DNA from: a virus
IMG/VR virus record: IMGVR_UViG_3300042691_032448
Span: 1-24,996 of that record
DNA length: 24,996 nt
Strand: one strand, 5' to 3'
Positions within the stretch are counted from its first letter, which is position 1. Every line of letters starts with the position of its first letter. This document shows positions 5,904 to 24,996 of this stretch, one piece after another. A model generated the notes under the pieces. That model ran no database searches. It saw only the letters and a program-made list of their open reading frames with translations, and was not told where the DNA came from. The position numbers were made by a program, and so were the translations under genes.

Positions 5904-6647
5904 ATGAACCTTAAAATGTACGCTTTAACTGGTACGATCGGTGGCGTTGTACTAGCGTTCAGTCTTCACCACGGGCAACAGTTTTTTAAATCAAGAGGAG
6001 AAGTTGGCGAGTATCACCGGCAGATGATGCTTGCAATGGAACAACCATTAGAGTTGGGCAACAACCCAGCTCGAACTTATCCCGATGGTGGGCTACCTCT
6101 GGACGCTACACCTGAGCCAGGTTATGAAGACGAACCAGGATCCTTACGCCCGTCCATACAGTTCACAAATCAACCCCCTCCGCTTCCTCCACTATCTAAC
6201 ACACCATTCCTCATCCTCAAGAAATCATCGCAAACGATCAAATCAACTAAGGATCCTATTTGGACACTCCAACTGATCAGTAAGGACGGCACTGTTCTTG
6301 ATAGCCTGCAGGCTGTGACAGGCAGAGCGTCCCGACAAGCAGTTAATCGTCACATCGCCGGCACAAAGGCTCCGCTTCCCGCAGGCACTTACAGGATTGA
6401 TCGTGCTGGTATCGAGCGCGGTCCTTTCAGTGATCCTGAGTTAGGTCGCGGTTATTGGATCCCGATCACTCCACTGTTTGCCACGGGGCGATCTGATCTC
6501 GGGTTTCACGTTGACCCTTCGTGGGGCAAGCTGAATGGAGAGTCAGGCACCAGCGGATGTATCGGCCTTGAGAACGTCGATGCAACAGTGAAACTTGTTA
6601 CTTGGATCAAGCACTTCAACGTCAGCAAACTCACAGTTCAATCATGA
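5904..6647 (+). CDS. Membrane-anchored L,D-transpeptidase-like (YkuD) protein
   Basis: A 247-residue protein. It has an N-terminal membrane anchor (about 5-20), a Pro-rich linker (about 50-105) and a C-terminal YkuD-like catalytic domain (about 115-245). The active-site block reads GFHVDP (200-205) and SGTSGCIGL (214-222), giving His202 and Cys219. The family usually has Arg two residues after the Cys (SxGCxR), whereas here it is Gly221, so activity may be altered. L,D-transpeptidases form 3-3 peptidoglycan crosslinks or attach proteins; some relatives act as toxins. An envelope-modifying or superinfection role is inferred. The stop overlaps the next ATG. Confidence 0.78.
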   Translation: MNLKMYALTGTIGGVVLAFSLHHGQQFFKSRGEVGEYHRQMMLAMEQPLELGNNPARTYPDGGLPLDATPEPGYEDEPGSLRPSIQFTNQPPPLPPLSNTPFLILKKSSQTIKSTKDPIWTLQLISKDGTVLDSLQAVTGRASRQAVNRHIAGTKAPLPAGTYRIDRAGIERGPFSDPELGRGYWIPITPLFATGRSDLGFHVDPSWGKLNGESGTSGCIGLENVDATVKLVTWIKHFNVSKLTVQS

Positions 6648-8308: not shown

Positions 8309-8337
8309 TTGACACCATGCTTCAAACGAGGTACATT
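8309..8337 (+). promoter_or_regulatory. Near-consensus sigma-70 promoter
   Basis: TTGACA (8309-8314), a 17-base spacer and TACATT (8332-8337) form the best promoter in the window. Transcription would start near 8344, giving a leader of about 50 bases before the ATG at 8395. The leader contains a possible hairpin (GCACCG with CGGTGC). It would drive the RavA/ViaA-like cassette. Confidence 0.75.
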
Positions 8338-8394
8338 GCTCTGCATGGGCGGCACCGGCCCCAAACGCGGTGCGAAACCATCGCATAACATCAA

Positions 8395-8820
8395 ATGACT
8401 AAGATCACTACACAAGCTCTGGTTAACCAGGGACGCATCAGCGCAGAGCGGTATGACTCCTGCGACACTGCGTTGGCTGAGCTAAACGACAGCTTCGGCG
8501 TTGAGTACGAAGCAGCTAAGGGCAACCTCAACTCAATGCTGTGGCAGGCAGACACGAACGAGGTTGATCTCTCTGCATTTCAGGGCGAGGATTCTCTGTT
8601 CAAGTTCCCTGAGTTCAAGACCAATATCGTGGTGAGGATCGACAGAATCCCCACACCGCATCAAAAGATCGACAAGCTCGATGAGAAGATCGCTGATCTA
8701 GAACTCAAGCTCAAGCTCGCTAAATCTGAACGCAAAGCTTTAATCGAGCAGCTGATCCTCAAAGGTCAGGTTGATCTACTGACTGACAAAATCACCGCCG
8801 TCTTCCGTCGCCTGAAGTAA
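8395..8820 (+). CDS. Cassette protein with C-terminal coiled coil (141 aa)
   Basis: A 141-residue protein. It has an N-terminal globular half with no known motif and a C-terminal half (about 90-125, KIDKLDEKIADLELKLKLAK) that is strongly coiled-coil. It is the first gene after the strong promoter, two bases upstream of the DUF3150-like gene, and so probably part of the same complex as the ATPase and VWA proteins. There is no Shine-Dalgarno sequence. Function unknown. Confidence 0.7.
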   Translation: MTKITTQALVNQGRISAERYDSCDTALAELNDSFGVEYEAAKGNLNSMLWQADTNEVDLSAFQGEDSLFKFPEFKTNIVVRIDRIPTPHQKIDKLDEKIADLELKLKLAKSERKALIEQLILKGQVDLLTDKITAVFRRLK

Positions 8821-8822
8821 TC

Positions 8823-10034
8823 ATGAGCACCGACAAGATCTTCCTGCTTCACTGCTCTGTAAGTGCCTCTGTGCGTCAGAGCACACAGATTAAAATGGCT
8901 GACTTACAGCTGCCTGGTTCTGTCATTGATGTGCTTGAGAAACAGCAGTCTGTCTCCGTGCGACCGACACTATCGGGCAAACTCAAAGACTTCCTGAATC
9001 TGCTGCGCATTGAGCAACGTAAGCTTTACGACGAGTGTACGATTCACAACGGCGACGTGCACTTCCTTCACGAGGACTACTTCGAAGATGCAATGGAGCG
9101 CATCGCCAAGATCCGCTCCGACGCTAACTCTTACAACGAACAGCTAAACGAATTGTGGCTTGAGGAGTACACCAGGTGGAGCAACACAGTGGAGGGCTTT
9201 CTTGAGCCTCTGTTCCGTGACGATCCTGAGGGCTTCAAACTGGCAAAGGAAGCTTACCTAACCATCTTCCCTACCAAGCAAGAGTTCGAAAATCCGATTC
9301 AGGTATTTGTTGTTGGTCCGAACCCTGTGAGCATGATGGTATCTGAAAGCAAAGAGGAGCACTCAATCTCCTCCGCGATTCAGGAAGCCGCCATCTTTAA
9401 TACCACGCAGGTCTTGGAAGCTGCTCGCGAGAGCGCTGCTGATCGCGCCCTGGCTAAGGCTGCTGAGCTACTTGATGATCTCGATGTTCGCGTATCTAGC
9501 AAGGTTGGCGAGCGTCAGACTGGTGGTACCAAACGTCGCGGCTCCTGGCAGATCACTGCAGAAACCCTGCAACTGATCACGCGGCACTGCCCTGGCTTTG
9601 AGAATCTATCAAAGTTATCGAACGATTTGCTCGAAGTTGGTGTCCGACTGCAGTCCGACGCGGCCAAGATTAAGAACCAAGCGTTCAAAGATTACGCCAA
9701 CATCAAAGCAGAGATCCGCAACGAGCTGCAGGCAATTGTAGACTCACGTAGTTCTACAGGTGGTCTAGAGTCACTCAAGAGATCTCTGGCACTTTCCGGT
9801 ACATATCGTGACCTGCTTGGCAAGATCACTGGTGCAGAGACTCAGGAGCAGCTTGATGAGCTTTACCACGAACTACAGATCGAGAAGGATGTCTATCAGC
9901 AGCGGTCTAAACATTTGCAAACCTTGTTTGATCAGCGCCTTGAACTTGTTAAAGCTCAAGCCGTGGGTCTGGATGATTTGATCGATGAGGTTAAAGCGAT
10001 AGAGGCGGAGACGACGGATGATCTTGACTTCTGA
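8823..10034 (+). CDS. DUF3150-like protein, cofactor of AAA/VWA pair
   Basis: A 403-residue, mostly helical protein. The N-terminus (DKIFLLHCSVSASVRQST, then a long charged helical region) resembles DUF3150 proteins, which I recall as frequent neighbours of MoxR-type ATPase and VWA genes in mobile elements. The similarity was judged by eye. Long coiled-coil stretches lie at about 85-130 and 340-395. The C-terminus is acidic and ends DDLDF, like other proteins in this window. The context suggests an adaptor or substrate subunit of the RavA/ViaA-like machine. The start context AATCATGAGCACC is identical to that at 16209. Confidence 0.6.
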   Translation: MSTDKIFLLHCSVSASVRQSTQIKMADLQLPGSVIDVLEKQQSVSVRPTLSGKLKDFLNLLRIEQRKLYDECTIHNGDVHFLHEDYFEDAMERIAKIRSDANSYNEQLNELWLEEYTRWSNTVEGFLEPLFRDDPEGFKLAKEAYLTIFPTKQEFENPIQVFVVGPNPVSMMVSESKEEHSISSAIQEAAIFNTTQVLEAARESAADRALAKAAELLDDLDVRVSSKVGERQTGGTKRRGSWQITAETLQLITRHCPGFENLSKLSNDLLEVGVRLQSDAAKIKNQAFKDYANIKAEIRNELQAIVDSRSSTGGLESLKRSLALSGTYRDLLGKITGAETQEQLDELYHELQIEKDVYQQRSKHLQTLFDQRLELVKAQAVGLDDLIDEVKAIEAETTDDLDF

Positions 10035-10155
10035 ACTCAAGCTAAAAGATCTTGTTCTCCTTCGAATTAACAAGAGTCTTAGCAAAGGCTATAGATCTCG
10101 CAAGCGAGATCGCTTCAAGAAACTTCTCAACTACGTCATCACCATCTTCGACTAA
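10018..10155 (+). CDS. Small basic protein linking cassette genes (45 aa)
   Basis: A 45-residue, Lys/Arg-rich frame (KGYRSRKRDRFKKLLNYV in the second half). The ATG at 10018 overlaps the DUF3150-like gene by 17 bases, with GGAG about 7 bases upstream. Its TAA at 10153-10155 shares a base with the ATG of the ATPase gene (TAATG), so it would couple translation of the two. A near-perfect 18-bp palindrome (10094-10111) lies within it. It may be a true subunit or only a coupling leader. Confidence 0.5.
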   Translation: MILTSELKLKDLVLLRINKSLSKGYRSRKRDRFKKLLNYVITIFD

Positions 10156-11339
10156 TGAACGACAAACTCTTTGCTCAGCTTCAGAACTTCCGCTCCAACC
10201 TCAACACTGCTTTTCTTGAGCGTGAAGATGTTATCGACGGGTTGCTCGCTTCCCTGATTACTAAGCAGAACAGTTTCCTTTTCGGCCTGCCTGGAACCGG
10301 TAAGTCTGAATTGGTTCGAGCAGTATCGAACGGCTTTAAAGGATCTCAGTTCTTTGGTTATCTTCTCTCACCGACAACGGATCCTTCTGAACTGTTCGGT
10401 CCTGTCGCAGTCTCGAAGCTCCTCAAAGATGAGTATGTTCGTGACGTTAATGGGTATTTACCCAGTGCAAACATTGCTTTCCTGGATGAGTTGTTCCGTG
10501 GAAGCTCCGCCGTTCTCAACTCGCTTCTCACGATCCTCAACGAACGGACGTTCAACAATGGTCGCGATGTGATTGAAACCCCAATCCAATCCATCGTTGC
10601 AGCAACCAACAGCTTCCCTCAGGAAGAATCGCTTCAGGCTTTCTGTGATCGATTTCTCTTCAGGCCCACAGTGGATCTTCTGAAGAAACCAGCATCTAAA
10701 CGTCAACTCGATGCCTGGGCTTTAGGGATCAAGCAGCGCCCGACCGTGGAGTCAGAGCTTAGCTTTGACGACCTGCAAACACTTCAGCATGAAGTTACGT
10801 CTATTCAGGCGAGTGATGAGTTTCTCGATTCCTTCACTCAAGTGATCGATCTGCTCGCAACCCGAGGCATCACGATCAGCGATCGTCGCCGCGTTCAAAT
10901 CCTCAAGTTTCTGCGCGGCTGGGCAATCGTTCAGGGTGATGAGGAGTTGTATCCCGAACATCTACATCGCTCCTTGGTTCACATCGTCTATCAAACAACA
11001 GATGACGTACAAGCAATCAAAGATGTTTTAGAGCAAGTAGTGCCTACTGCTGAGAAGCTTCTTGAAAGTATCAAGCGGGCGCATAGCGGGATCCTTACGG
11101 AATACCACGCTGTCCATGCTCAAGAGTCTAAAAGTGTCGACGATCTCAACCGTCTTGTCGGCAAGCTCCGCAAAATGCACAGAGACCTTGACACACTTAA
11201 CAACAAGTTAGACAACATCCTTGAGTCTGGTCAGTATCGAATCTCAGCTCACGCTCGTCAAACAGCAACAAAGCTCGCTCAGGCAATCGAATCCTCATCG
11301 CAATCAGTCGCTAATTCCATCTCAAACATCTCCTCATGA
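10155..11339 (+). CDS. RavA-like MoxR-family AAA+ ATPase
   Basis: A 394-residue AAA+ ATPase of the MoxR class. Walker A is GLPGTGKS (44-51) and Walker B IAFLDE (107-112). The helix-2-type insert and following block read GYLPSANIAFLDELFRGSSA. The sensor 1 region is VAATNSFP (148-155) and the arginine-finger-type segment DRFLFR (165-170). The pattern (LLSPTTDPSELFGP, then LNSLLTILNERTF) is closest in my memory to RavA. A helical C-terminal region (about 290-394) follows. MoxR proteins form hexamers that remodel targets with a VWA partner, which is encoded next, overlapping by 4 bases. It probably acts in the cytoplasm. It is shorter than E. coli RavA (about 500 aa). Confidence 0.88.
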   Translation: MNDKLFAQLQNFRSNLNTAFLEREDVIDGLLASLITKQNSFLFGLPGTGKSELVRAVSNGFKGSQFFGYLLSPTTDPSELFGPVAVSKLLKDEYVRDVNGYLPSANIAFLDELFRGSSAVLNSLLTILNERTFNNGRDVIETPIQSIVAATNSFPQEESLQAFCDRFLFRPTVDLLKKPASKRQLDAWALGIKQRPTVESELSFDDLQTLQHEVTSIQASDEFLDSFTQVIDLLATRGITISDRRRVQILKFLRGWAIVQGDEELYPEHLHRSLVHIVYQTTDDVQAIKDVLEQVVPTAEKLLESIKRAHSGILTEYHAVHAQESKSVDDLNRLVGKLRKMHRDLDTLNNKLDNILESGQYRISAHARQTATKLAQAIESSSQSVANSISNISS

Positions 11340-12877
11340 AAACCAACACCGAGTTCCTCCGCCTTGTAAACAACGATCCCCTTGTACTCGCAGTCTCAGC
11401 GCTGTCTGATTTTCTGTGGGATGACTTCATCCGCGACGCCCGTCCCATAGTTAAGTACATTGAAGATCGCTACAACATCCATCAGCTCTCACGCTTTGGA
11501 AAGGAGCTATTTGACTTCCTTTACAACGGCGGCCAGGTAACTACGGTCATCACTTTAGAGGAGGCAGAAACGTACTTCCGAGCTAAGCAGAACGGAGAGA
11601 ACCCTGACCTTCCTAAAAACTACAAGCCAGAGTCTGCCTTCTGGGTGAGCTTGTTCATTCAGATTTGTGAATCTCCTTCCTGGCCACGCTTGGTTGCTTT
11701 GTCGGTCGGCGATCAGTTCACCGCAGGCAATAACGCCATTAACGTACTGAACGAGCTAAGCGAAATAATCGAAAAGCAGATTGAGCAGGGCTTTATCGAT
11801 GCTCAAATGCTCGCTGGTGCAGGTCAGGAACTGCAAGACATTCGTGAACAGTTCATGCAGGCAAAGGCTGAAGGAAACCTCGCCAAAGCTGCAGAGCTTC
11901 GTCAGAAAGGCAAGGAGCTCGGTCAGCAAATCGAGCAGGCGATGCAGGAAGCTGCAGAAAACATGCAACCTCATGTTGACAAAGCAGTCGACCGTGCTCA
12001 CCAGAGTGCTCAAGACGTTAAAGAAGCCATGAGTCAGTTAGCTGGCTCTGAGGCAGGTAAGGGTATTGCTCTCAACGACCTGGATCAGAAGCGGAATCTC
12101 GCTCGCAAACTCTCAGCTAACCCTGGGTTGCGTGAGCTTGTACGGAGACTCGGAGCGCTCAGACAAGCGTGGGCTGACCGCAAGCGTGCACGCAAATCTC
12201 GTTCTAGCTACAGCGACATTGTCGGAGCTAAATTCTCTGATGAAGTGATCAAGGCGTTCCCTGCTGAGATTGCTCTCGCCGCCACGGAACACGGTAGGGC
12301 TCTATTTGCTCTGAAATACAGTCAGAAAACACTATTGACAAAGGATTACGAGGCCAGGATCAAGGAACTGGATAAAGGTCCTGTTGTCTTGTATATCGAC
12401 ATCAGTGGATCGATGGCCGGTGAGTCAGAGCTGTGGTCTAAAGCAATCGCGTATGTAGTAGCCGAAGAGTGCCTTAAGCAGAATCGAGCCACTCACATCC
12501 ACCTGTTCGACACAGTTATTCAAAAAAGTATCCATCTTGATAAAAACCGCAGCGATAACGATCGCCTTCTTAACTTCGTTCTCAGTTGGACAACGCGTGG
12601 TGGTACTTCTTTCTGCTCAGTTATAGACCACGCTTTGAACAAGATCAACTACGTCGATAAAGCCGACATTTTGATGATTACTGACGGGAGTGCTGAAGTG
12701 TCAGATCCGTTCATCCGCCGTCTGAACACTTTCAAACAGGAAAATGGTGTGCAGTGGAGCAGCTTCTGTATCGGTAGGAGATCGAGTGTTCTCAAACAAT
12801 TCAGTGATTACGTGCACACTGTGGACCCTACAGACGATCCTGGTAGTGCTGAACTGTTTCAAGATGCTCTACGGTAA
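11336..12877 (+). CDS. ViaA-like VWA-domain protein
   Basis: A 513-residue protein. The N-terminal helical region (1-140) is followed by a long charged coiled coil (about 140-235), then a conserved-looking segment (about 290-345, with DEVIKAFPAEIALAATEHG) and a C-terminal VWA domain (about 347-513). The metal-site motif is complete: DISGS (355-359), a Thr at about 424 (RGGTS) and Asp450 (MITDGS). The order and the segment before the VWA domain resemble ViaA, the partner that stimulates RavA. The ATG overlaps the ATPase stop as ATGA, so the pair is translationally coupled. A G/C-rich hairpin follows at 12909. Confidence 0.88.
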   Translation: MKTNTEFLRLVNNDPLVLAVSALSDFLWDDFIRDARPIVKYIEDRYNIHQLSRFGKELFDFLYNGGQVTTVITLEEAETYFRAKQNGENPDLPKNYKPESAFWVSLFIQICESPSWPRLVALSVGDQFTAGNNAINVLNELSEIIEKQIEQGFIDAQMLAGAGQELQDIREQFMQAKAEGNLAKAAELRQKGKELGQQIEQAMQEAAENMQPHVDKAVDRAHQSAQDVKEAMSQLAGSEAGKGIALNDLDQKRNLARKLSANPGLRELVRRLGALRQAWADRKRARKSRSSYSDIVGAKFSDEVIKAFPAEIALAATEHGRALFALKYSQKTLLTKDYEARIKELDKGPVVLYIDISGSMAGESELWSKAIAYVVAEECLKQNRATHIHLFDTVIQKSIHLDKNRSDNDRLLNFVLSWTTRGGTSFCSVIDHALNKINYVDKADILMITDGSAEVSDPFIRRLNTFKQENGVQWSSFCIGRRSSVLKQFSDYVHTVDPTDDPGSAELFQDALR

Positions 12878-12908
12878 GGTTGAAGCCTCAAACATTCCGA
12901 ATAGATTG

Positions 12909-12927
12909 AGGGGCAGCCGCTGCCCCT
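12909..12927 (+). terminator. Strong hairpin at end of RavA/ViaA-like cassette
   Basis: GGGGCAG (12910-12916) and CTGCCCC (12920-12926) form a perfect 7-bp G/C stem around CCG, extended by one A-T pair. Only TT follows, so it may terminate poorly or stabilise the mRNA 3' end. It ends four bases before the ATG at 12931 and could also limit translation of that gene. Confidence 0.5.
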
Positions 12928-12930
12928 TAA

Positions 12931-13444: not shown

Positions 13445-14257
13445 ATGAACTTCAAGTTCAAGATCGGAGAAACCACACTCGACAACACCGAAGCAAAGGC
13501 TCTGCTTAACGCAGCCGGACGCGAGCAAGCAATCGTCGTTGACATTGCTGAGCACATCGATCCTGCAATGATTGATGCCAAAAAGCTGTTCTCGATCAGC
13601 GTGGAAACGAAAAACCCCACGCTGGCTTCCTTGGCTGCCCGTTTCGCCATTGAGGGAATCGAAACTCCCAAGAAGCGCACTTACAACAGGAGTGATGCGA
13701 ATCGAATTTCTCGAATCGAACCGAACAAAGTAATCACCCAGCCGGATGAAGCGATTGAAGCGCTTTGCAAGATGGGAAGCCTGAAAGCCATCGGGGCAGC
13801 GATGATCCTGGATGGTGTATCGGACGGCAACAGTCGCACGCTCCGTCAGGTCGCCACGAGCTGCGTTAACTCGATGGCATACCGAGGAACGGTTAGCCCA
13901 GACTCACAGTGCTTCATGGGCTTCTGTAAGGACGGTGAGGGCCACTATCGGACGCTCAACCAAGGTCCCAACGTCCCTCGTAGCGCTGCGTACCACGCCT
14001 CGCCTATGTACACAGCCGTGCGGGACGGTGCTCAGCTGCTCAAAGAATGGGGCCTCATTGAGCTGAAGGAGATTATCGAATTTGGTAGCAAGGATAAAGA
14101 GCTTGACGAAAACAGCAAGCAGCTTCGCCGACTGGTCTATGCTGTGTCTCCAACTGCCATGGGTCAAAAAGTTGCTCACTCCTGGGGTGACATCAACGAC
14201 TTCATCAGCCGCCGCTGGAGCACTCGGATTCGCGAGCGAAACTCCTACGCTGCCTGA
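13445..14257 (+). CDS. Protein of unknown function (270 aa)
   Basis: A 270-residue soluble protein with no recognised domain. Residues 1-70 look like a small alpha/beta unit. A basic linker follows (about 74-90, PKKRTYNRSDANRISR), suggesting nucleic acid contact. Residues 190-215 (MYTAVRDGAQLLKEWGLIEL) could be part of a winged helix. It stands alone between a probable promoter and a strong terminator, just ahead of DNA polymerase, so it may be well expressed and tied to replication or transcription. No catalytic residues can be named. Confidence 0.75.
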   Translation: MNFKFKIGETTLDNTEAKALLNAAGREQAIVVDIAEHIDPAMIDAKKLFSISVETKNPTLASLAARFAIEGIETPKKRTYNRSDANRISRIEPNKVITQPDEAIEALCKMGSLKAIGAAMILDGVSDGNSRTLRQVATSCVNSMAYRGTVSPDSQCFMGFCKDGEGHYRTLNQGPNVPRSAAYHASPMYTAVRDGAQLLKEWGLIELKEIIEFGSKDKELDENSKQLRRLVYAVSPTAMGQKVAHSWGDINDFISRRWSTRIRERNSYAA

Positions 14258-14310: not shown

Positions 14311-16206
14311 ATGAAAATCTTCTACGTAGTTACAAACGCTCAGTTTGAGCAAGCAATTTCGGAACTACAGCAAATTCCGAAGCTTTGCCTTGACTTTGAA
14401 ACTACGGGGCTTGACTCCCACGTAGCGAAAGCTAGGTTACTGCAGCTATGTACTACGGATGTAAAAGAAACGAATAGAACTGTATATGTTTTAGACCTAT
14501 TCAAAATCAATATAACTAACGAGTTAAAACAACTAATTGAAAGCCGAGAGATGATACTTGGGCATAACTTAAATTTTGATTTTCAGTTTCTCTTATCACT
14601 GGGTATAGATTACAAAGGCAAGGTATTTGATACGTACATAGCTGAGCGCTGCTTGCGAGCTGGTTTTAAAGAAAAGAAAACATCACCCAAACTCCAGAAG
14701 CCTTACTTTGATGACGTCAGCTGCTCGCTTAAAGCAGTTGTTGAGCGTCGGCTTGAGATAGAAATAAGCAAAGAACAACAGGTTTCTGACTGGAGTAAAG
14801 AAGAATTAAACATTGAGCAGATTGAGTACGCTGCCACGGACGTCGATTTGCTACCAAAAATTGCAGCAGATCAACTTAAGGAGCTAGCTGAAGAAGCATT
14901 ACTAGATGTTTATTCTCTTGAATCCAAGTGCGTTCGCCCTGTGGCGCTCATGTGTTACAAAGGATTCAACGTCGATGTTAGTAAACTAACCTCCCTACGG
15001 CAAACCATCCAGGATAAACTCGATCAAATTACGCTAGAGTTTTGCACCAAGCTCGACGAGGCCCTACCTCCAGAGTTAAAACTCCCACGAAAAACCGATG
15101 GCTCTCTGGCAATTGGAAAAAACCTTCGAAAGGAATTTAATCCTGGGTCAGGTGTGCAGTGCGTCCGATGTTTCGAAGCACTTGGCGTTGCACTTCCAAC
15201 AAATCCAGCAACAGGAAAGACAACAGTTAATCAGATCCAGCTCGCGGAGTTCGATAGTGACGACCCGTTACTGAATCTATACCGTAAACGTACAAAAATT
15301 GAAACTAAACTAGAGCACGTAGAAAAGTTAATAGCAAACATAAACCCAATCACACATCGTATCCACTCTGGGTACAACCAGTACGGGGCTAACTCAGGCC
15401 GATTTACGTCAAGTGGAGCAAAGAAAACTAGCGCTAAAAAAATTAAAAATCAGTTTGCTATCAATGCTCAACAAATACCAAGGGACAAGGAATTCAGAGA
15501 GTGTTTCGTAGCCACGCCTGGTCATAAATTGATTATCTGTGATTTCAGTCAGATCGAACTTCGTCTTGGTGCTGAGCTAATTGGCATACCTCAGATGATC
15601 GAAGCGTTTAAACAGGGGCACGATCTTCATACCGTTACAGCCAGTCTTATCTACAGAATCCCTCTAGAAGAGGTTCAAAAGCATCAGAGGCAAGAAGGTA
15701 AAACACTTAACTTCGCCCTCTTATACGGTATGGGATTCAGAAAATACAAAACATACGCAGCGCAGTCTGGAAAGATCATCTCGCTATCAGAAGCAAAAGT
15801 AGCTCACATGGCGTTTCATAATGCCTACCCACGGTTGCGTCAGTGGCACAGAGAGCGAGCCGCGATGGTGGAAGACGGCTGGACTTATGTCCGTACCCCA
15901 CTAGGAAGACGACGTCTGCTTTCCTACAGCGACGCGACTATGACTGCGTGTGCCAATACGCTGATACAAGGGGCTGGTGCTGATATCCTTAAGCTGTCTT
16001 TGGCCAAGCTGAACCCCTATCTGGGGGAAGAGGCTCACCTAGTTGCTTGTGTGCATGATGAAATTGTCCTCGAAGCGGTCGACGAAAAAGTTGAGTATTA
16101 CAAAGAAATCCTTGAACGCTGTATGACAGAGGCTGCCGAAACAATCTTGAAAGAAGTGCCTGCGAAAGCAGACGCTACACACGGAGAAACCTGGTCAGAG
16201 AAGTAA
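14311..16206 (+). CDS. Family A DNA polymerase with 3'-5' exonuclease
   Basis: A 631-residue replicative phage DNA polymerase of the Pol I family. The N-terminal proofreading exonuclease has ExoI LDFETTG (27-33; Asp28, Glu30), ExoII GHNLNFDFQF (about 89-98) and ExoIII YAATDVDLLPKI (about 173-184). The polymerase domain has motif A CDFSQIELRL (410-419, Asp411), motif B K464 TLNFALLYG with Phe468 and Tyr472, and motif C VHDEIVLE (Asp583). All catalytic residues are present and no 5'-3' exonuclease domain is seen. The ATG at 14311 is only six bases after a terminator, so transcripts must read through or start unusually. Its codons are more A/T-rich than those of the preceding gene. Confidence 0.95.
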   Translation: MKIFYVVTNAQFEQAISELQQIPKLCLDFETTGLDSHVAKARLLQLCTTDVKETNRTVYVLDLFKINITNELKQLIESREMILGHNLNFDFQFLLSLGIDYKGKVFDTYIAERCLRAGFKEKKTSPKLQKPYFDDVSCSLKAVVERRLEIEISKEQQVSDWSKEELNIEQIEYAATDVDLLPKIAADQLKELAEEALLDVYSLESKCVRPVALMCYKGFNVDVSKLTSLRQTIQDKLDQITLEFCTKLDEALPPELKLPRKTDGSLAIGKNLRKEFNPGSGVQCVRCFEALGVALPTNPATGKTTVNQIQLAEFDSDDPLLNLYRKRTKIETKLEHVEKLIANINPITHRIHSGYNQYGANSGRFTSSGAKKTSAKKIKNQFAINAQQIPRDKEFRECFVATPGHKLIICDFSQIELRLGAELIGIPQMIEAFKQGHDLHTVTASLIYRIPLEEVQKHQRQEGKTLNFALLYGMGFRKYKTYAAQSGKIISLSEAKVAHMAFHNAYPRLRQWHRERAAMVEDGWTYVRTPLGRRRLLSYSDATMTACANTLIQGAGADILKLSLAKLNPYLGEEAHLVACVHDEIVLEAVDEKVEYYKEILERCMTEAAETILKEVPAKADATHGETWSEK

Positions 16207-18648: not shown

Positions 18649-19210
18649 CTATTGCTTAGTCATACAGAAAGACAAGAAGACTTTAGAGCTCGCTATATCA
18701 GCCAATGATTCAAACCACGCTCAGGCGCAGGCGGCTGATATTGCAAGAGCATTACAAGTAAGTACATTTTCTCTGTCTTACAAGAGCATACAAGAAAGCA
18801 GTCTAGCTCTTCTATTTAAACGATTAGCTCATAGCGACTTCAGCCACATTGATTGCTACAAGTGGGAAGGCAGACTATGTAACAACTCTCCAGTCGTGTA
18901 CGCACTAGGCAAAAAATACTATGTACGACCTATGATATTAGATTATTTAGAAATAAATAAAGACGATTGTGTCAAACCTGCGTGCGGTGATTCGTTGTGT
19001 GTAAACCCTTACCACAATTCTTACAAGAAAATGAAGGCGTCCAAGCTCGGGGACGCGGACGTCAATTTGGTACTAGCATTTTCCAGCCAAGGCGTCCCTG
19101 TACGGGAGATCGCCAAGGCACTCAAGGTACACCGCTCAACGATTTACCGAACGTTAAACCGTGAACATTTTCATGCTGGGCCTGCGCATCACCGATGCAG
19201 CAGACATTGA
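18635..19210 (+). CDS. HNH-like zinc-site and helix-turn-helix protein
   Basis: A 191-residue protein with two recognisable parts. Residues 112-128 (CVKPACGDSLCVNPYHN) match the second half of an HNH_3-type homing-endonuclease finger (usual form HLCGN..CVNPxHL); Cys117, Cys122 and His127 are kept, but the first His position is Pro115. Residues 150-175 (GVPVREIAKALKVHRSTIYR) form a resolvase-like helix-turn-helix. It may be a DNA-binding protein derived from a homing nuclease, active or not. I chose the ATG at 18635. The 3' end overlaps SSB by 38 bases. Confidence 0.65.
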   Translation: MTSTDYCLVIQKDKKTLELAISANDSNHAQAQAADIARALQVSTFSLSYKSIQESSLALLFKRLAHSDFSHIDCYKWEGRLCNNSPVVYALGKKYYVRPMILDYLEINKDDCVKPACGDSLCVNPYHNSYKKMKASKLGDADVNLVLAFSSQGVPVREIAKALKVHRSTIYRTLNREHFHAGPAHHRCSRH

Positions 19211-19808
19211 CGAAAACAAAGTCGCACACGTCTTAGCTGAGTCTTTGCCTTCAAGCGATCGTCGCATCGCTACCAAGGTTCAGCTCTCAATGAAAGAGGA
19301 TCACTACGTAGGTAAAATCCTCAAAACACTTGAAGAAAAACAAACAGTATTCGCTGTTGGTCCGACAAAAGCTACTCCCGATGGAGTGCTTCAAATGCAG
19401 CCAATGCTGGTAGTCACAGATAAAAACTGGGACGACCTCCTAGCTGTCAATTTGTTTGTGTCCACGGGTGGCTTGGGTCCTGTGACTGAAGAGACTCAGC
19501 TGGGAGATAACACCGTTACCAATCGTTCGCTCGCGTGGCAAGACGAAAAAGGTGAAACCTCTTGGTTCAAGTTGACAGCCTGGGATTCCCTGTCTGCTCA
19601 ACTGGCTGATCTTGCTCCAGGCACACCGACCATCGCTGTAGGTCGGGTCAGCACTAGCGAAAAGGAAGATCGTAAGTATCTTAATTACGGAGTGGAGAAA
19701 GTTCTCTACCTCCCACGCAGCAAAAAGTCTGCGCCCGCCAAGGCTGCTGATCCCGATAAAGGAAAAGTATCTACGGCTGCTCTCGGTTCACTGGACTTCT
19801 CTCTTTGA
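19173..19808 (+). CDS. ssb: Single-stranded DNA-binding protein (SSB-like)
   Basis: A 211-residue protein. The central OB-fold-like region has the SSB hallmarks: NRSLAWQDEKGETSWFKLTA, then a WDSLSAQLADL helix, then TIAVGRVSTSE and a closing YGVEKVLYLPR strand. A disordered Lys/Ala/Pro linker leads to a short C-terminal SLDFSL, reminiscent of the acidic-aromatic SSB tip that binds replication partners. The N-terminal 75 residues are not typical and look like an added domain. The start is ATG 19173; a GTG at 19161 is also possible. It lies upstream of the gene whose product also ends LDF. Confidence 0.65.
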   Translation: MLGLRITDAADIDENKVAHVLAESLPSSDRRIATKVQLSMKEDHYVGKILKTLEEKQTVFAVGPTKATPDGVLQMQPMLVVTDKNWDDLLAVNLFVSTGGLGPVTEETQLGDNTVTNRSLAWQDEKGETSWFKLTAWDSLSAQLADLAPGTPTIAVGRVSTSEKEDRKYLNYGVEKVLYLPRSKKSAPAKAADPDKGKVSTAALGSLDFSL

Positions 19809-19817
19809 TCTACGGTC

Positions 19818-20651
19818 ATGGTTTTTATTGCTGGTAAATTTTCGGCTGATGAAATCCTCTGTCAGATTCCGCCGCACACTCTCCGCATCGATCTTCAATC
19901 GCGCTATTGGAAATCCGATACTGACAGTGAGGCGGCGATCGTCGACAGCAACGGTAATGGGATTCCGATTTCGTTCATCCTTCTTGGTTTCACGCCGTAT
20001 TTCGGCAACCTCGGTATGCGAAACCATGAGGAGTTCATTCGCATTGCTTACATTGGTGTTTCACCTAATCATCGTTTGCTCCCACCTCGCTGCGTATGCA
20101 CTAGCATCATCAGTGGTAAATCGTCTCAAAGGAACTTCATCTCGTACTTCCAGACGCTATACAACAATCGTATTAACGTAGGCGAAGTTATTACGGAAAC
20201 TAAGTTCGTTCAAAAATCTTTTAACGAACGGGATCCAATGACTGGCGCAGACGGTGCGAAGATCAACTACAACGTTCTAGAGTTTCGAGATCGGCCTGCT
20301 CAAACAGATGAGGAGAAAAAGCTCATCGAAGACATCAGTGCGTGGCTCGACTCTGGTTCAGGAGATCTGGTGGCATCTGCTTTACGCAGTACTATCTCCG
20401 GTGCTCATTTGGTTGAGTTACCTTTGGGAGAAGACCACGCAGCGATTAAAGAAGCTTTCATCGAAGCCAACCCGAAGCGTTTAGAGGGGACGGCTCCTGC
20501 TGGTCTGTCAGCTCTGCCGGCTGGTGCTGGTGTCCCCGGTGCTAAAGCTGAGGAAGCTCCTGAGCCGCCTGCTGCAAAGAAGGCAACTACCAAAAAGGAG
20601 TTGACTGAAGAGCAGAAAGCCGCGCTGCAAGCCGCTGGTTTGGATTTCTAA
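19818..20651 (+). CDS. Protein with SSB-like C-terminal tail (277 aa)
   Basis: A 277-residue protein. Residues 1-200 look folded and beta-rich (HTLRIDLQSRYWKSD, GFTPYFGNLGMRNHEEFIRI) with a helical segment after 155. An Ala/Pro/Glu-rich linker (about 212-258) then leads to a short tail KAALQAAGLDF. This folded domain-linker-aromatic tip plan is that of SSB-type or replication accessory proteins. It follows SSB by 9 bases and ends before a strong terminator. I do not recognise the folded domain; recombination mediator or second ssDNA-binding protein are guesses. Confidence 0.7.
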   Translation: MVFIAGKFSADEILCQIPPHTLRIDLQSRYWKSDTDSEAAIVDSNGNGIPISFILLGFTPYFGNLGMRNHEEFIRIAYIGVSPNHRLLPPRCVCTSIISGKSSQRNFISYFQTLYNNRINVGEVITETKFVQKSFNERDPMTGADGAKINYNVLEFRDRPAQTDEEKKLIEDISAWLDSGSGDLVASALRSTISGAHLVELPLGEDHAAIKEAFIEANPKRLEGTAPAGLSALPAGAGVPGAKAEEAPEPPAAKKATTKKELTEEQKAALQAAGLDF

Positions 20652-21815: not shown

Positions 21816-21832
21816 GACACGAATATTGTGTC
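21816..21832. promoter_or_regulatory. Palindrome over nuclease start codon
   Basis: GACACGAATATTGTGTC is an imperfect 17-bp palindrome (GACAC/GTGTC arms) that covers the GTG start at 21828. It may be an operator or an RNA hairpin hiding the start. The overlapping TTGACA (21814-21819) lacks a partner -10 box. Confidence 0.35.
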
Positions 21833-22607
21833 CGATACCCGAGTAACAGTTAACGGATTAAGGCACTACATCTGCAATGGTGTACCTAAACCACTCCCTT
21901 CCGTTACATCTATTCTGAGTGCTACTCAGACTGAAACGACACGCAAAAAGTTAGCAGCCTGGAATTTGATGAATCCAGGCGCAGCTGATGCTGCCGCAAC
22001 GAGAGGCACTTGGATTCACAACAGTGTTGAAGATTATCTGAGAGGACTTCGGGTAATTCCTTCTGAACAGTACAAACCTTATTGGGATGGTGTTCCAGAA
22101 CTATTAGATAACTTGTTAGAGGGTGGGCGAGTTTTATGGTCGGAAAAGCCGTTTAATCAACCACGCTGGTCTAAGTACGTAGGAGATGACGGAGTAGGTC
22201 GAATTCACTATTACGACGAAAAAACAGGTCACGGTTACGCAGGATGCTGTGATCTTATTTATATGAACTCAAATGCAGAGATTGTTCTTGCTGACTTCAA
22301 GACCAGCAACGGACCTTACGCTGCTCGTTTCCCCAACAAGAATTTAAAGATAGATGAGCGAACAAAAAAAGCTTTAATTTCGGGTGTTTTTAAAACCAAA
22401 AAGACACGACTTCAATTAGCTGCGTATAAAGCAGCCGCTGAAGCTTGTCTAGGTATTAAAATTGTGAAAACTCAAATTATTGTCACGACAGCAATTAAAG
22501 AATTCAATACTCAGATATTTACTTTTGGTCCAGATGAAGTAGAAAAAGACGAAGAAAGTTGGTTCCAAGTTGTAAAACAGTACTACGACTTGAACCCAGC
22601 AGCGTAG
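21828..22607 (+). CDS. RecB/Cas4-like PD-(D/E)XK nuclease
   Basis: A 259-residue nuclease of the PD-(D/E)XK superfamily, close to phage RecB-like exonucleases. Motifs in order: GTWIHNSVEDYL (60-71; His64), SEKPF (105-109; Glu106), GYAGCCDLIY (137-146; Asp142), VLADFKTS (153-160; Asp156, Lys158) and TRLQLAAYKAA (193-203; Gln196). All core residues are present. No Fe-S cysteine set of Cas4 type is evident. It probably processes DNA ends in phage replication or recombination. The start is GTG at 21828; no other start codon lies before the conserved region. Confidence 0.85.
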   Translation: MSDTRVTVNGLRHYICNGVPKPLPSVTSILSATQTETTRKKLAAWNLMNPGAADAAATRGTWIHNSVEDYLRGLRVIPSEQYKPYWDGVPELLDNLLEGGRVLWSEKPFNQPRWSKYVGDDGVGRIHYYDEKTGHGYAGCCDLIYMNSNAEIVLADFKTSNGPYAARFPNKNLKIDERTKKALISGVFKTKKTRLQLAAYKAAAEACLGIKIVKTQIIVTTAIKEFNTQIFTFGPDEVEKDEESWFQVVKQYYDLNPAA

Positions 22608-22709: not shown

Positions 22710-24996
22710 ATGAAGTTCATTTGCTCTGTAAACCTCGGGGTTGTCCCGCACCTCGACCCCGAGCAGGGCAAGATCGCTACTGGTGGAAACTTCAGCGCGT
22801 TCAACTCAGGTTGGGACTCAGTTGAGATTGATACAACTGAGCTTTCTAAAATTCTCGCTAAGCAGGCGGGTCTGTGTGCATGGCATCTACAAGATGGTAA
22901 GCGTCAAAAGAACTCCACCGGCGTCATAAAAGCTGGTTTAATCATTGTTGATATTGATAACCAAGCTGACTATAAAGACGAGAACGGAAACAAAGTTCAA
23001 AAGCAAGAGCTGACTGTAGATCAAGCTCTTGAGTTAGAAATTTGTAAAAAGTACTTAACTCTCGGGTATTACTCTCCGTCAACGAAGGATGGTTGGCCTC
23101 GATTCCGACTGGTTTTCGGTCTGGAAACACCGGTTCTTAATCCAAGTTTCTATCAGTGGTTCTGTAAGCAAATTTATGCTCAGATTCCCGGCTCTGATAT
23201 CCGAGCAACTACAGTCCCAAACCTGTTTTATGGGCCACGAAGGGGCAAAGATATCTTCGCGCAGCCAGGTCGGTTTATACCTAGTGAAAAAATCAATGAA
23301 GCGATTCGAGCTTTCGCGGCGTTGCCTCCTGATGAAACAGATTCGGGTGAGGATCCCTGTGATTGTTTGAACCAAGCTACCGTTCGACAGAACGGGATGG
23401 ACTTAGGTCGCCTTGTCTCGAACACAGTTCGGTCTGTGCTCGACGGCGAAGAGGTGGGCGACCGGAGCTCAACCATGGCTGCCGTATTTAAAGAGCTTAT
23501 AGGATGGGCTAATTGGTGCAACGCAAATGATATAGCTCTGTGCACATCACCGTTGACCTTGGCACAGGATGCGTTCTATAATATCTATGGTTACCCGCAC
23601 GACATCGATGGCAAGTTCGACCGTATCCTGAATTCCATCAGGAACCCAGAAGAGCTGCAACCAGCTGTCTCGCTAGCGTCTGAGCTTGGAGAGCTTGGTA
23701 CTTGGAAAAAAATACGGCGCATCAGTCGATCTGTTTTCGACACCCACGCCTCTGATGAGGTCAAATCAGCTCTTGAGCAAGCAAAGCGAGAAACAGCAAT
23801 AAACGCTGTACTCGACATGTCTGAATTTGAACTCAGCTCCTCTGAGCCTGAGGACATCACATCAAAATCTCAAACTAAAACAAAAGACATGAACACACCA
23901 TCAACTCCAACACAGCTAGTAAACCTACAGAACGGTTCACGCAATCGTGAATTTTCTGAAAATGACGTAGCTGACATTATCGTCACTAACCAAGGTGATA
24001 AATTTATATACGACAGTTATTTAGATCAGTTCTATCATTACGATGATGATCAGGATATCTGGTATCATCAAGACGAACAGCACATCAAGCGTCGCATTGT
24101 AAAAGCGTTAGATTCGTTTGTGATTGCTGGCGTGCTTGCTAAGTACAACGCCGCGATGATAAATAGCGTATTTTCAATTCTTAAAGCAAAATTGCTTAAA
24201 TCAGCAGACGGTGGTCGGCGAAGCATTTGGACAAAATCTCGGGGATATATTCCATTTAAGAACGGCGTGCTTGATACGACCACGCTGGAGTTTGAACCCG
24301 GACAGCACAAAGAACTTTATTTGCGTCACAAGCTTCCTTATGAATACAACGCAAAAGCTCAATGCCCGGAGTTTATGCGTTGGATTACATCTGCTTTAGA
24401 CAAAGGTCAAGACGTTCTGATTCAAGCTTTTGCTCGTGCTTTATTAACCGGCTACACAGCTGGTGAGCGGTTTTTGCACTTAGTGGGTCCTGGAGGTACC
24501 GGTAAGTCAACTATGCAGCAGCTTATGGTTGCTCTTGCTGGTTTCCACGGTACCCACACGTCGAGTTTGGAAGTCATAGAAACAAACAAGTTTGAGAGCT
24601 ACAACCTGATTGGTAAGAAACTCTTACTCCTTACCGACGAATCTAATTACAACCGACGTATGGACGTGTTGAAGAAGCTAACCTCAGCTTCTGATACATT
24701 GCGAGCTGAACGCAAGTATGGCAAAGAAATAATCAGCTTCAAACCTGAGTGTTTAGTCTGCATCGCTAGTAACGAACACATCACCTCTAACGATTCCAGC
24801 AGCGGCCTAGAACGCCGTCGCCTGACGATTGTGATGGATAAGGTTGTGGAACCCAGTTTGCGAAAAGAACTTATCAGCGTATTTGATGACCACATTGAAG
24901 GTGCTTTTGTGCCAGAGATGAGTGGAATAGTTACTTGGGCTTTGTCCATGGACTACGCGACCATGAAAGATGTCTTAGCTAATCCGACTAAACACG
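22710..24996 (+). CDS. Primase-helicase, D5-like (3' end outside window)
   Basis: At least 762 residues, open at the right edge. The N-terminal part resembles an archaeo-eukaryotic-type primase/polymerase: LIIVDIDN (77-84; Asp81, Asp83) and YYSPSTKDGWPRFRLVF (about 118-134). A linker (about 380-410) leads to a D5_N-like region and a superfamily 3 helicase: Walker A GPGGTGKS (593-600), Walker B LLLLTDES (about 638-645), and sensor CIASNEH followed by ERRRLTIV. It would unwind DNA and prime synthesis for the polymerase encoded at 14311. The ATG at 22710 gives the whole primase motif set. An in-frame ATG at 23889 could make a helicase-only form. Confidence 0.88.
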   Translation, partial: MKFICSVNLGVVPHLDPEQGKIATGGNFSAFNSGWDSVEIDTTELSKILAKQAGLCAWHLQDGKRQKNSTGVIKAGLIIVDIDNQADYKDENGNKVQKQELTVDQALELEICKKYLTLGYYSPSTKDGWPRFRLVFGLETPVLNPSFYQWFCKQIYAQIPGSDIRATTVPNLFYGPRRGKDIFAQPGRFIPSEKINEAIRAFAALPPDETDSGEDPCDCLNQATVRQNGMDLGRLVSNTVRSVLDGEEVGDRSSTMAAVFKELIGWANWCNANDIALCTSPLTLAQDAFYNIYGYPHDIDGKFDRILNSIRNPEELQPAVSLASELGELGTWKKIRRISRSVFDTHASDEVKSALEQAKRETAINAVLDMSEFELSSSEPEDITSKSQTKTKDMNTPSTPTQLVNLQNGSRNREFSENDVADIIVTNQGDKFIYDSYLDQFYHYDDDQDIWYHQDEQHIKRRIVKALDSFVIAGVLAKYNAAMINSVFSILKAKLLKSADGGRRSIWTKSRGYIPFKNGVLDTTTLEFEPGQHKELYLRHKLPYEYNAKAQCPEFMRWITSALDKGQDVLIQAFARALLTGYTAGERFLHLVGPGGTGKSTMQQLMVALAGFHGTHTSSLEVIETNKFESYNLIGKKLLLLTDESNYNRRMDVLKKLTSASDTLRAERKYGKEIISFKPECLVCIASNEHITSNDSSSGLERRRLTIVMDKVVEPSLRKELISVFDDHIEGAFVPEMSGIVTWALSMDYATMKDVLANPTKH

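Follow-up and report, generated by a model that had tools for sequence, protein, structure and literature searches.

What could a MoxR-type AAA+ ATPase and a von Willebrand factor A (VWA) protein, encoded side by side in the genome of an uncultured cyanophage, be acting on? The question is raised by the IMG/VR record IMGVR_UViG_3300042691_032448, of which positions 1 to 24,996, a 24,996-base fragment referred to below as the window, were analyzed. A sequence-only reading of this DNA had described at positions 8309-12877 a five-gene cassette resembling the RavA-ViaA system of E. coli. The set comprises the genes p1, p2 and p3, the ATPase gene and the VWA gene, all on the + strand, as are the promoter and leader that precede them and the p7 and polymerase genes that follow. 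Since the set adjoins a DNA polymerase gene and p2 carries a tail like the C-terminal tip of the single-stranded DNA-binding protein SSB, its target is probably DNA replication and not host respiration. The fuller proposal is of a three-part MoxR-VWA machine in which a DUF3150-like protein serves as adaptor and which remodels complexes of replication or recombination; it is given about an even chance of being correct.

Profile, PDB and tree evidence identifies the ATPase (394 residues, positions 10155-11339) as being of the RavA/bpMoxR type. Its best Pfam match is bpMoxR (PF20030, E 2e-56), and it also matches the NCBIfam model of RavA (NF010054, E 8e-39, residues 7-299) and RavA in the PDB (E 3e-34). 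Among 22 aligned homologues, 61-96% identical to the window protein, the Walker A sequence GLPGTGKS (positions 10284-10307) is invariant save for its second residue, and the Walker B, sensor 1 (ATN) and SDRR motifs are likewise invariant. A CobS/NorQ-like ATPase, which the sequence-only reading had named as telling against its proposal, was not found. In a tree, CobS-type ATPases split from the window ATPase with support of 100/100, and the protein gives no Pfam match to the CbbQ_C domain, to which the CobS proteins of mobile elements do match, so that assignment to the CobS/NorQ/CbbQ class was rejected. The same tree leaves the phage ATPase clade unplaced relative to RavA, bacterial bpMoxR and other phage ATPases. 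As judged from these comparisons, the ATPase belongs to the RavA/bpMoxR branch and not to CobS/NorQ.

The gene for the VWA protein (513 residues, positions 11336-12877) encodes a ViaA-like product with a C-terminal VWA domain, as supported by profile, alignment and structural model. Its metal site, which the sequence-only reading had described as intact, consists of the DxSxS motif (DISGS, positions 12398-12412) completed by T424 and D450, and none of the five residues (D355, S357, S359, T424 and D450) varies among 22 aligned homologues that are 44-91% identical to the window protein. The predicted structure contains the VWA domain, and a fold search adds nothing further. The protein matches the NCBIfam ViaA model (E 4e-15), with 55.9 bits against an equivalog cut-off of 500. 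Conversely, Salmonella ViaA scores 50 bits against the profile of the VWA family (profile positions 202-484), versus less than 2 bits for CobT, and by these scores the protein is ViaA-like and not CobT-like. A match to PHROG_1314, labelled 'HNH endonuclease' (E 2e-6), was taken as a mislabel because it covers the VWA region.

Both partners thus fit the proposed RavA-ViaA likeness at family level, with intact Walker and sensor motifs in the ATPase, but neither reaches the level of an orthologue. The ATPase scores 134 bits against a RavA equivalog cut-off of 681, its match stops at residue 299, the remaining residues 300-394 match only weak coiled-coil families, and the LARA and RavA C-terminal domains give no Pfam match. 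Because these domains are not found, identity is about 32%, and scores fall far below the cut-offs of both RavA and ViaA, the pair is classed by sequence as relatives of RavA-ViaA rather than as their orthologues.

The third component, p2 (403 residues, positions 8823-10034), is present in 43/43 related loci, and had been described as DUF3150-like. The predicted structure speaks for this, whereas sequence profiles do not. Compared by Foldseek with viral models, the AlphaFold2 model of p2 (predicted local distance difference test score, pLDDT, 78; predicted template modelling score, pTM, 0.41) gave eight matches of probability 1.00, of which one is named as a phage DUF3150 protein, and the match that followed had a probability of 0.84; template modelling (TM) scores of the eight matches were 0.22-0.28 by query, the model being flexible. 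No Foldseek match was obtained in the PDB. Pfam DUF3150 (PF11348) did not match p2 up to E 1, nothing was recognised in the Pfam, PHROG and NCBIfam libraries searched, and hhalign comparisons with six DUF3150 proteins from Pfam, run with 22 and with 44 sequences in local and global mode, did not rise above reversed or unrelated controls. Also, tblastn with p2 found no match in annotated phages, a scan of viral contigs with a DUF3150 alignment found no relatives, and no DUF3150 was found in four genomes bearing bacterial relatives of the ATPase. The p2 gene adjoins a MoxR-VWA pair and its product ends in an aromatic residue, as is mostly so for DUF3150, a pattern noticed here rather than a published definition. 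On structural modelling only, p2 is a candidate DUF3150-like protein.

The C-terminal tail of p2 (positions 9999-10031) is acidic and ends in -DF-COOH. This ending occurs in 44/44 homologues, which comprise 32 distinct sequences over the last 14 residues, and in all four further p2 proteins fetched later; per genome, just 1-2 of 81-93 open reading frames (ORFs) end in DF. Among bacterial Pfam DUF3150 proteins, 14 of 15 have a terminal aromatic residue, and the eight DUF3150 proteins fetched after the pattern had been noticed all have aromatic ends (six F and two W), whereas in such loci the background among ORFs no shorter than 200 codons is 17.5% (P 9e-7, a value that assumes independence of the DUF3150 sequences, which related sequences have only in part). 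In phage T7, gp2.5 has an acidic tail with a terminal Phe and binds a family A polymerase by this tail. An acidic tail with a terminal Phe is also the hallmark of the SSB C-terminal tip, DDDIPF (PMC5872125; PMC10164576), which the tails of p2 and of DUF3150 proteins resemble. As a separate observation, the products of YqaJ exonuclease and SSB genes beside DUF3150 triads (L192, L221, L223, L224, L225) often have aromatic ends (YF, FY, PF); tip-like endings may be common to whole recombination modules.

The placement of the set next to replication genes had been regarded as unexpected. This was not borne out, as MoxR-VWA pairs of several other phages and the DUF3150 triads of bacterial mobile elements are similarly placed. 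Such pairs lie beside the sliding clamp and clamp loader genes in S-ShM2, S-PM2 and Mosig, beside DnaE in nickie and RHph_Y2_11 and beside primase and DnaB in Schomber, and in CL131 a DNA polymerase III beta gene is next to the pair. Phages in which a CobS/CobT- or RavA-type pair occurs by clamp, polymerase, primase or helicase genes include T4-like cyanophages and a Pelagibacter phage. Among 14 bacterial DUF3150 loci, a CobT-like VWA gene is nearby in 13 and most also have a CobS-like ATPase gene; SSB, RecT or YqaJ genes occur within about 7 kb in 11.

The sequence-only reading had taken the genome to be cyanophage-like, and this was borne out by a close relative of 86,390 bases (G001), which is probably complete since its end repeats its start over about 127 bases. 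The G001 major capsid protein (MCP) is 69% identical to that of the cultured Synechococcus phage S-EIV1, the sole match among 50,697 records; its terminase (TerL) is 51-54% and its portal-like protein 43% identical. No head genes were recognised in the window, and one window gene (positions 21828-22607) is 38% identical to its S-EIV1 counterpart. In view of these similarities the genome is clearly, as far as sequence tells, that of an S-EIV1-like cyanophage. A search of the relatives for the PHROG_2 terminase was blank, the terminase there being matched by PHROG_38. Related capsid proteins occur on at least 592 contigs, and the lineage is one of abundant uncultured cyanophages in which the gene set is a near-constant module. 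The order p1-p2-ATPase-VWA-p7-PolA is the same in 43/43 loci, as far as each contig extends, and homologues of the set therefore do co-occur with its flanking genes. The ATPase was found in nine of ten long contigs with a capsid protein at least 91% identical; neither the tenth (61.7 kb), which may be a fragment, nor S-EIV1 has any of the three, the ATPase, p2 and this PolA. The gene set and this PolA co-occur wherever both can be observed. In G001 the set lies on the DNA-metabolism strand, with the head genes about 25 kb away on the opposite strand.

At the locus itself, the five tightly coupled genes that had been described are all present as ORFs on one strand, with neighbours that overlap or lie 2 nt apart. 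Their standing as a five-gene unit holds in part, as p3, a basic ORF of 45 residues (positions 10018-10155), is restricted to the closest relatives, occurring in just 9/43 loci, with either no room or a gap without an ORF elsewhere; compared with L002, p3 shows a third-codon bias (15/25 changes). The first gene, p1 (141 residues, positions 8395-8820), encodes a C-terminal coiled coil and ends in K in 38/38 homologues. In comparisons of the window with two relatives, nonsynonymous divergence (dN) was 0.08-0.25 and synonymous divergence (dS) at or near saturation. The predicted sigma-70-type promoter (TTGACA, 17 nt, TACATT) is present at positions 8309-8337, with the -35 element at 8309-8314 and the -10 element at 8332-8337. 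The bare pattern is not rare, 25 of 100 shuffled windows containing a match, and it is conservation in the relatives that makes the promoter more than a chance match. In 12/12 aligned relatives the -35 hexamer TTGACA is retained, as is TA...T in the -10 element, while the spacer varies, and a comparable site occurs just 5' of the gene set in 4/4 large related genomes searched.

Between promoter and first gene lies a GC-rich leader kept across relatives (GGGCGGCACCGGCCC..AACGCGGTGCG, positions 8347-8374), with a potential GCACCG/CGGTGC hairpin whose fold z-score is only -1.4; the window version could be translated as an ORF of 17 codons beginning MGGTGP, which a stop shortens in L007. A further GC-rich hairpin (GGGGCAGCCGCTGCCCC, positions 12906-12929), without a T run, occurs 3' of the VWA gene and resembles hairpins of L003 and L007; it may separate the gene set from the polymerase genes. 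In L029/G005 several kb are inserted between the VWA gene and p7, and p7 and PolA still follow; L028 (7955-17849) and L029 (10001-20734) represent a subgroup with this insert and with about 1 kb between the p2 and ATPase genes.

The protein families, intact catalytic sites, gene order, promoter, p2 tail and matching neighbourhoods of independent MoxR-VWA systems are observed directly, and the remodelling machine is proposed on this background. In it, the RavA-type ATPase would form an ATP-driven hexamer, and the ViaA-like protein, by way of the VWA domain with its metal site, would link this hexamer to a substrate; both the hexamer and the binding of the ATPase to the VWA protein are expected by analogy with relatives. 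In the case of NorQD, a MoxR ATPase that twists or pulls on its VWA partner is established (PMC13036017). The p2 protein would be a putative adaptor, whose acidic, Phe-ended tail might dock on a replication or recombination protein much as the SSB tip and the tail of T7 gp2.5 do; docking partner and client are likewise putative, the likely clients being the neighbouring polymerase, an SSB-like protein or the primase. What the machine would assemble, release or recycle is some part of the phage's replication complex.

Several points weigh against this proposal. S-EIV1 replicates without the gene set, and membership of one early transcription unit need not mean shared function. What links p2 to DUF3150 is a structural model of pTM 0.41 together with the type of tail that they share, sequence profiles being blank, and a terminal Phe behind acidic residues is a short motif. 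Also, no annotated replication gene is near such an ATPase in Acinetobacter phage Ab15, Gordonia phage Kudefre, Microcystis phage Mel-JY01 or the archaeal virus SMV1, and the sample of phage neighbourhoods was picked after the fact, is non-random and has no calibrated null.

The main competitor is a role as virion assembly chaperone, in which the ATPase and VWA protein would fold or assemble a head or tail protein. The bench-studied viral MoxR-VWA pair is that of Acidianus two-tailed virus (ATV), whose p618 binds virion proteins and the VWA protein p892 (PMC4124505) and to which the window ATPase is distantly similar (28%), and a virion role has been proposed for the pair of group 2.2 jumbo phages (PMC7824862). 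However, an ATV-like role is made less likely by S-EIV1, which is without the set yet shares the head genes (MCP 69%, TerL about 54%), and by the location of the set with DNA-metabolism genes, about 25 kb from head genes on the opposite strand; also, the DUF3150 triads of bacterial elements adjoin recombination genes. We therefore consider a virion role rather improbable. Takeover of the host, by remodelling of a respiratory, membrane or immune complex, has a precedent in the E. coli RavA-ViaA system, whose targets are fumarate reductase, complex I and lipids of the inner membrane (PMC10585395, PMC3893208, PMC9489729), and related bacterial ATPases occur in MoxR-VWA conflict systems (bpMoxR; PMC7159879). 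The window ATPase is nevertheless without the LARA domain, and a role in host respiration or stress found no support. As to counter-defence, which the sequence-only reading had entertained along with action on a host complex, PADLOC gave only weak coiled-coil matches, which were rejected, and no defence family; no variable effector domain, beta-propeller or VMAP partner gene was recognised, and the near-constant presence and order of the set in the clade are unlike those of a variable conflict cassette. Host takeover or counter-defence appears improbable.

It is very improbable that the pair inserts a metal or cofactor into a host or phage enzyme, as NorQD, CobST and CoxDE do, one example being the chelation of cobalt in the service of nucleotide metabolism. 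Insertion of metals or metal clusters is the function of several MoxR-VWA pairs that have been characterised (PMC13036017), a contribution to cobalamin synthesis has been suggested for the CobST of tailed viruses (PMC8651126), and a dCTP deaminase gene precedes the gene set. Yet the ATPase falls outside the CobS/NorQ class, the VWA protein is ViaA-like and not CobT-like, and no metalloenzyme gene is constantly beside the set.

The DNA polymerase A gene (positions 14311-16206), which encodes a 3'-5' exonuclease domain, lies 3' of the gene set in 39/43 loci, and p7 (270 residues, positions 13445-14257), of no recognised family, is found in 41/43 loci, always between the VWA gene and the polymerase. 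Elsewhere in the window, a protein of 277 residues and no known family (positions 19818-20651) adjoins a weak SSB match (positions 19161-19808, Pfam SSB E 0.0018). Among relatives of the 277-residue protein, F is the last residue in 29/32, often as part of -GLDF, the p2-type ending. A primase-helicase gene (positions 22710-24995) runs past the window end and is absent from the list of closed ORFs, and the protein at 21828-22607 has a D...DFK stretch resembling a PD-(D/E)XK nuclease, with no Pfam match. In the phage early region, positions 5904-6647 encode an L,D-transpeptidase-like (YkuD) domain (E 4e-5). In G001 (L073), record positions 26924-31885 form a block with an ORF of 787 residues and no Pfam match, which is missing from three other genomes of the lineage.

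Phages commonly carry MoxR-VWA pairs, which in T4-like cyanophages are core genes; the role of the pairs in phages is unproven, and annotations frequently present them as genes for cobalamin or metal chelation. Pairs of this kind were already known; what is new is a RavA/ViaA-type set with a DUF3150-like partner, near-constant in an uncultured cyanophage lineage, and an SSB-tip-like tail that links it to the CobS/CobT triads of mobile elements. In a literature search of incomplete coverage, no paper dealt with MoxR genes of S-EIV1-like phages and none named DUF3150. The tie to replication genes and the SSB-tip-like tail together make a concrete, testable hypothesis which, if true, would describe a new kind of motor in the replication and recombination of phages and mobile elements. 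Tentatively, and on balance short of what we would expect to hold, the MoxR-VWA machines of phages and conjugative elements could form a general class of replication and recombination remodellers, built at least twice, from CobS/CobT and from RavA/ViaA stock, with an SSB-tip-mimicking DUF3150-type adaptor. In that event, the cobalamin-gene label common in phages would be wrong.

Compared with known systems, the window set is like RavA-ViaA of E. coli and Salmonella in having a MoxR gene followed by an overlapping gene with a C-terminal VWA domain, with ATPase identity of about 32%, and differs from it in being without the LARA and RavA C-terminal domains, in the additional p2 and in its DNA-replication setting. 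With the triads of bacterial mobile elements, formed by DUF3150, CobS-like and CobT-like proteins, it shares a MoxR ATPase, a VWA protein and a DUF3150-type protein with a terminal aromatic residue, SSB, RecT or YqaJ genes being near those triads; in contrast, the triad ATPase is of the CbbQ/CobS class and its VWA protein of the CobT class, the gene order differs, and p2 falls outside the DUF3150 profile. The cobS-cobT genes of T4-like cyanophages and other tailed phages, so far read as cobalamin genes (PMC8651126), resemble it as a MoxR-VWA pair adjoining clamp, clamp-loader, polymerase, primase or helicase genes, but have an ATPase of the other class and no third partner identified here. Gene pairs of Aphanizomenon phage CL131 (gp147-gp146) and Moorella phage MTATph1 (CDS0115-0114) likewise encode a RavA/bpMoxR-type ATPase and then a VWA protein, with hmmsearch matches to the window ATPase family of E 5e-9 and E 4e-45, respectively; their ATPases are about 33% identical and their upstream partner is LPD29 or DUF6744, not p2. 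The p618/p892 proteins of ATV also combine a viral MoxR ATPase with a VWA partner, yet identity is 28% and the ATV protein is a virion protein involved in tail development (PMC4124505). Finally, the bpMoxR ternary conflict systems have the same bpMoxR-type ATPase domain, with about 32-37% identity between the window ATPase and its bacterial relatives, whereas their beta-propeller, VMAP and variable effector partners were not recognised in the five proteins or close neighbours of the window set, the architecture of which is constant.

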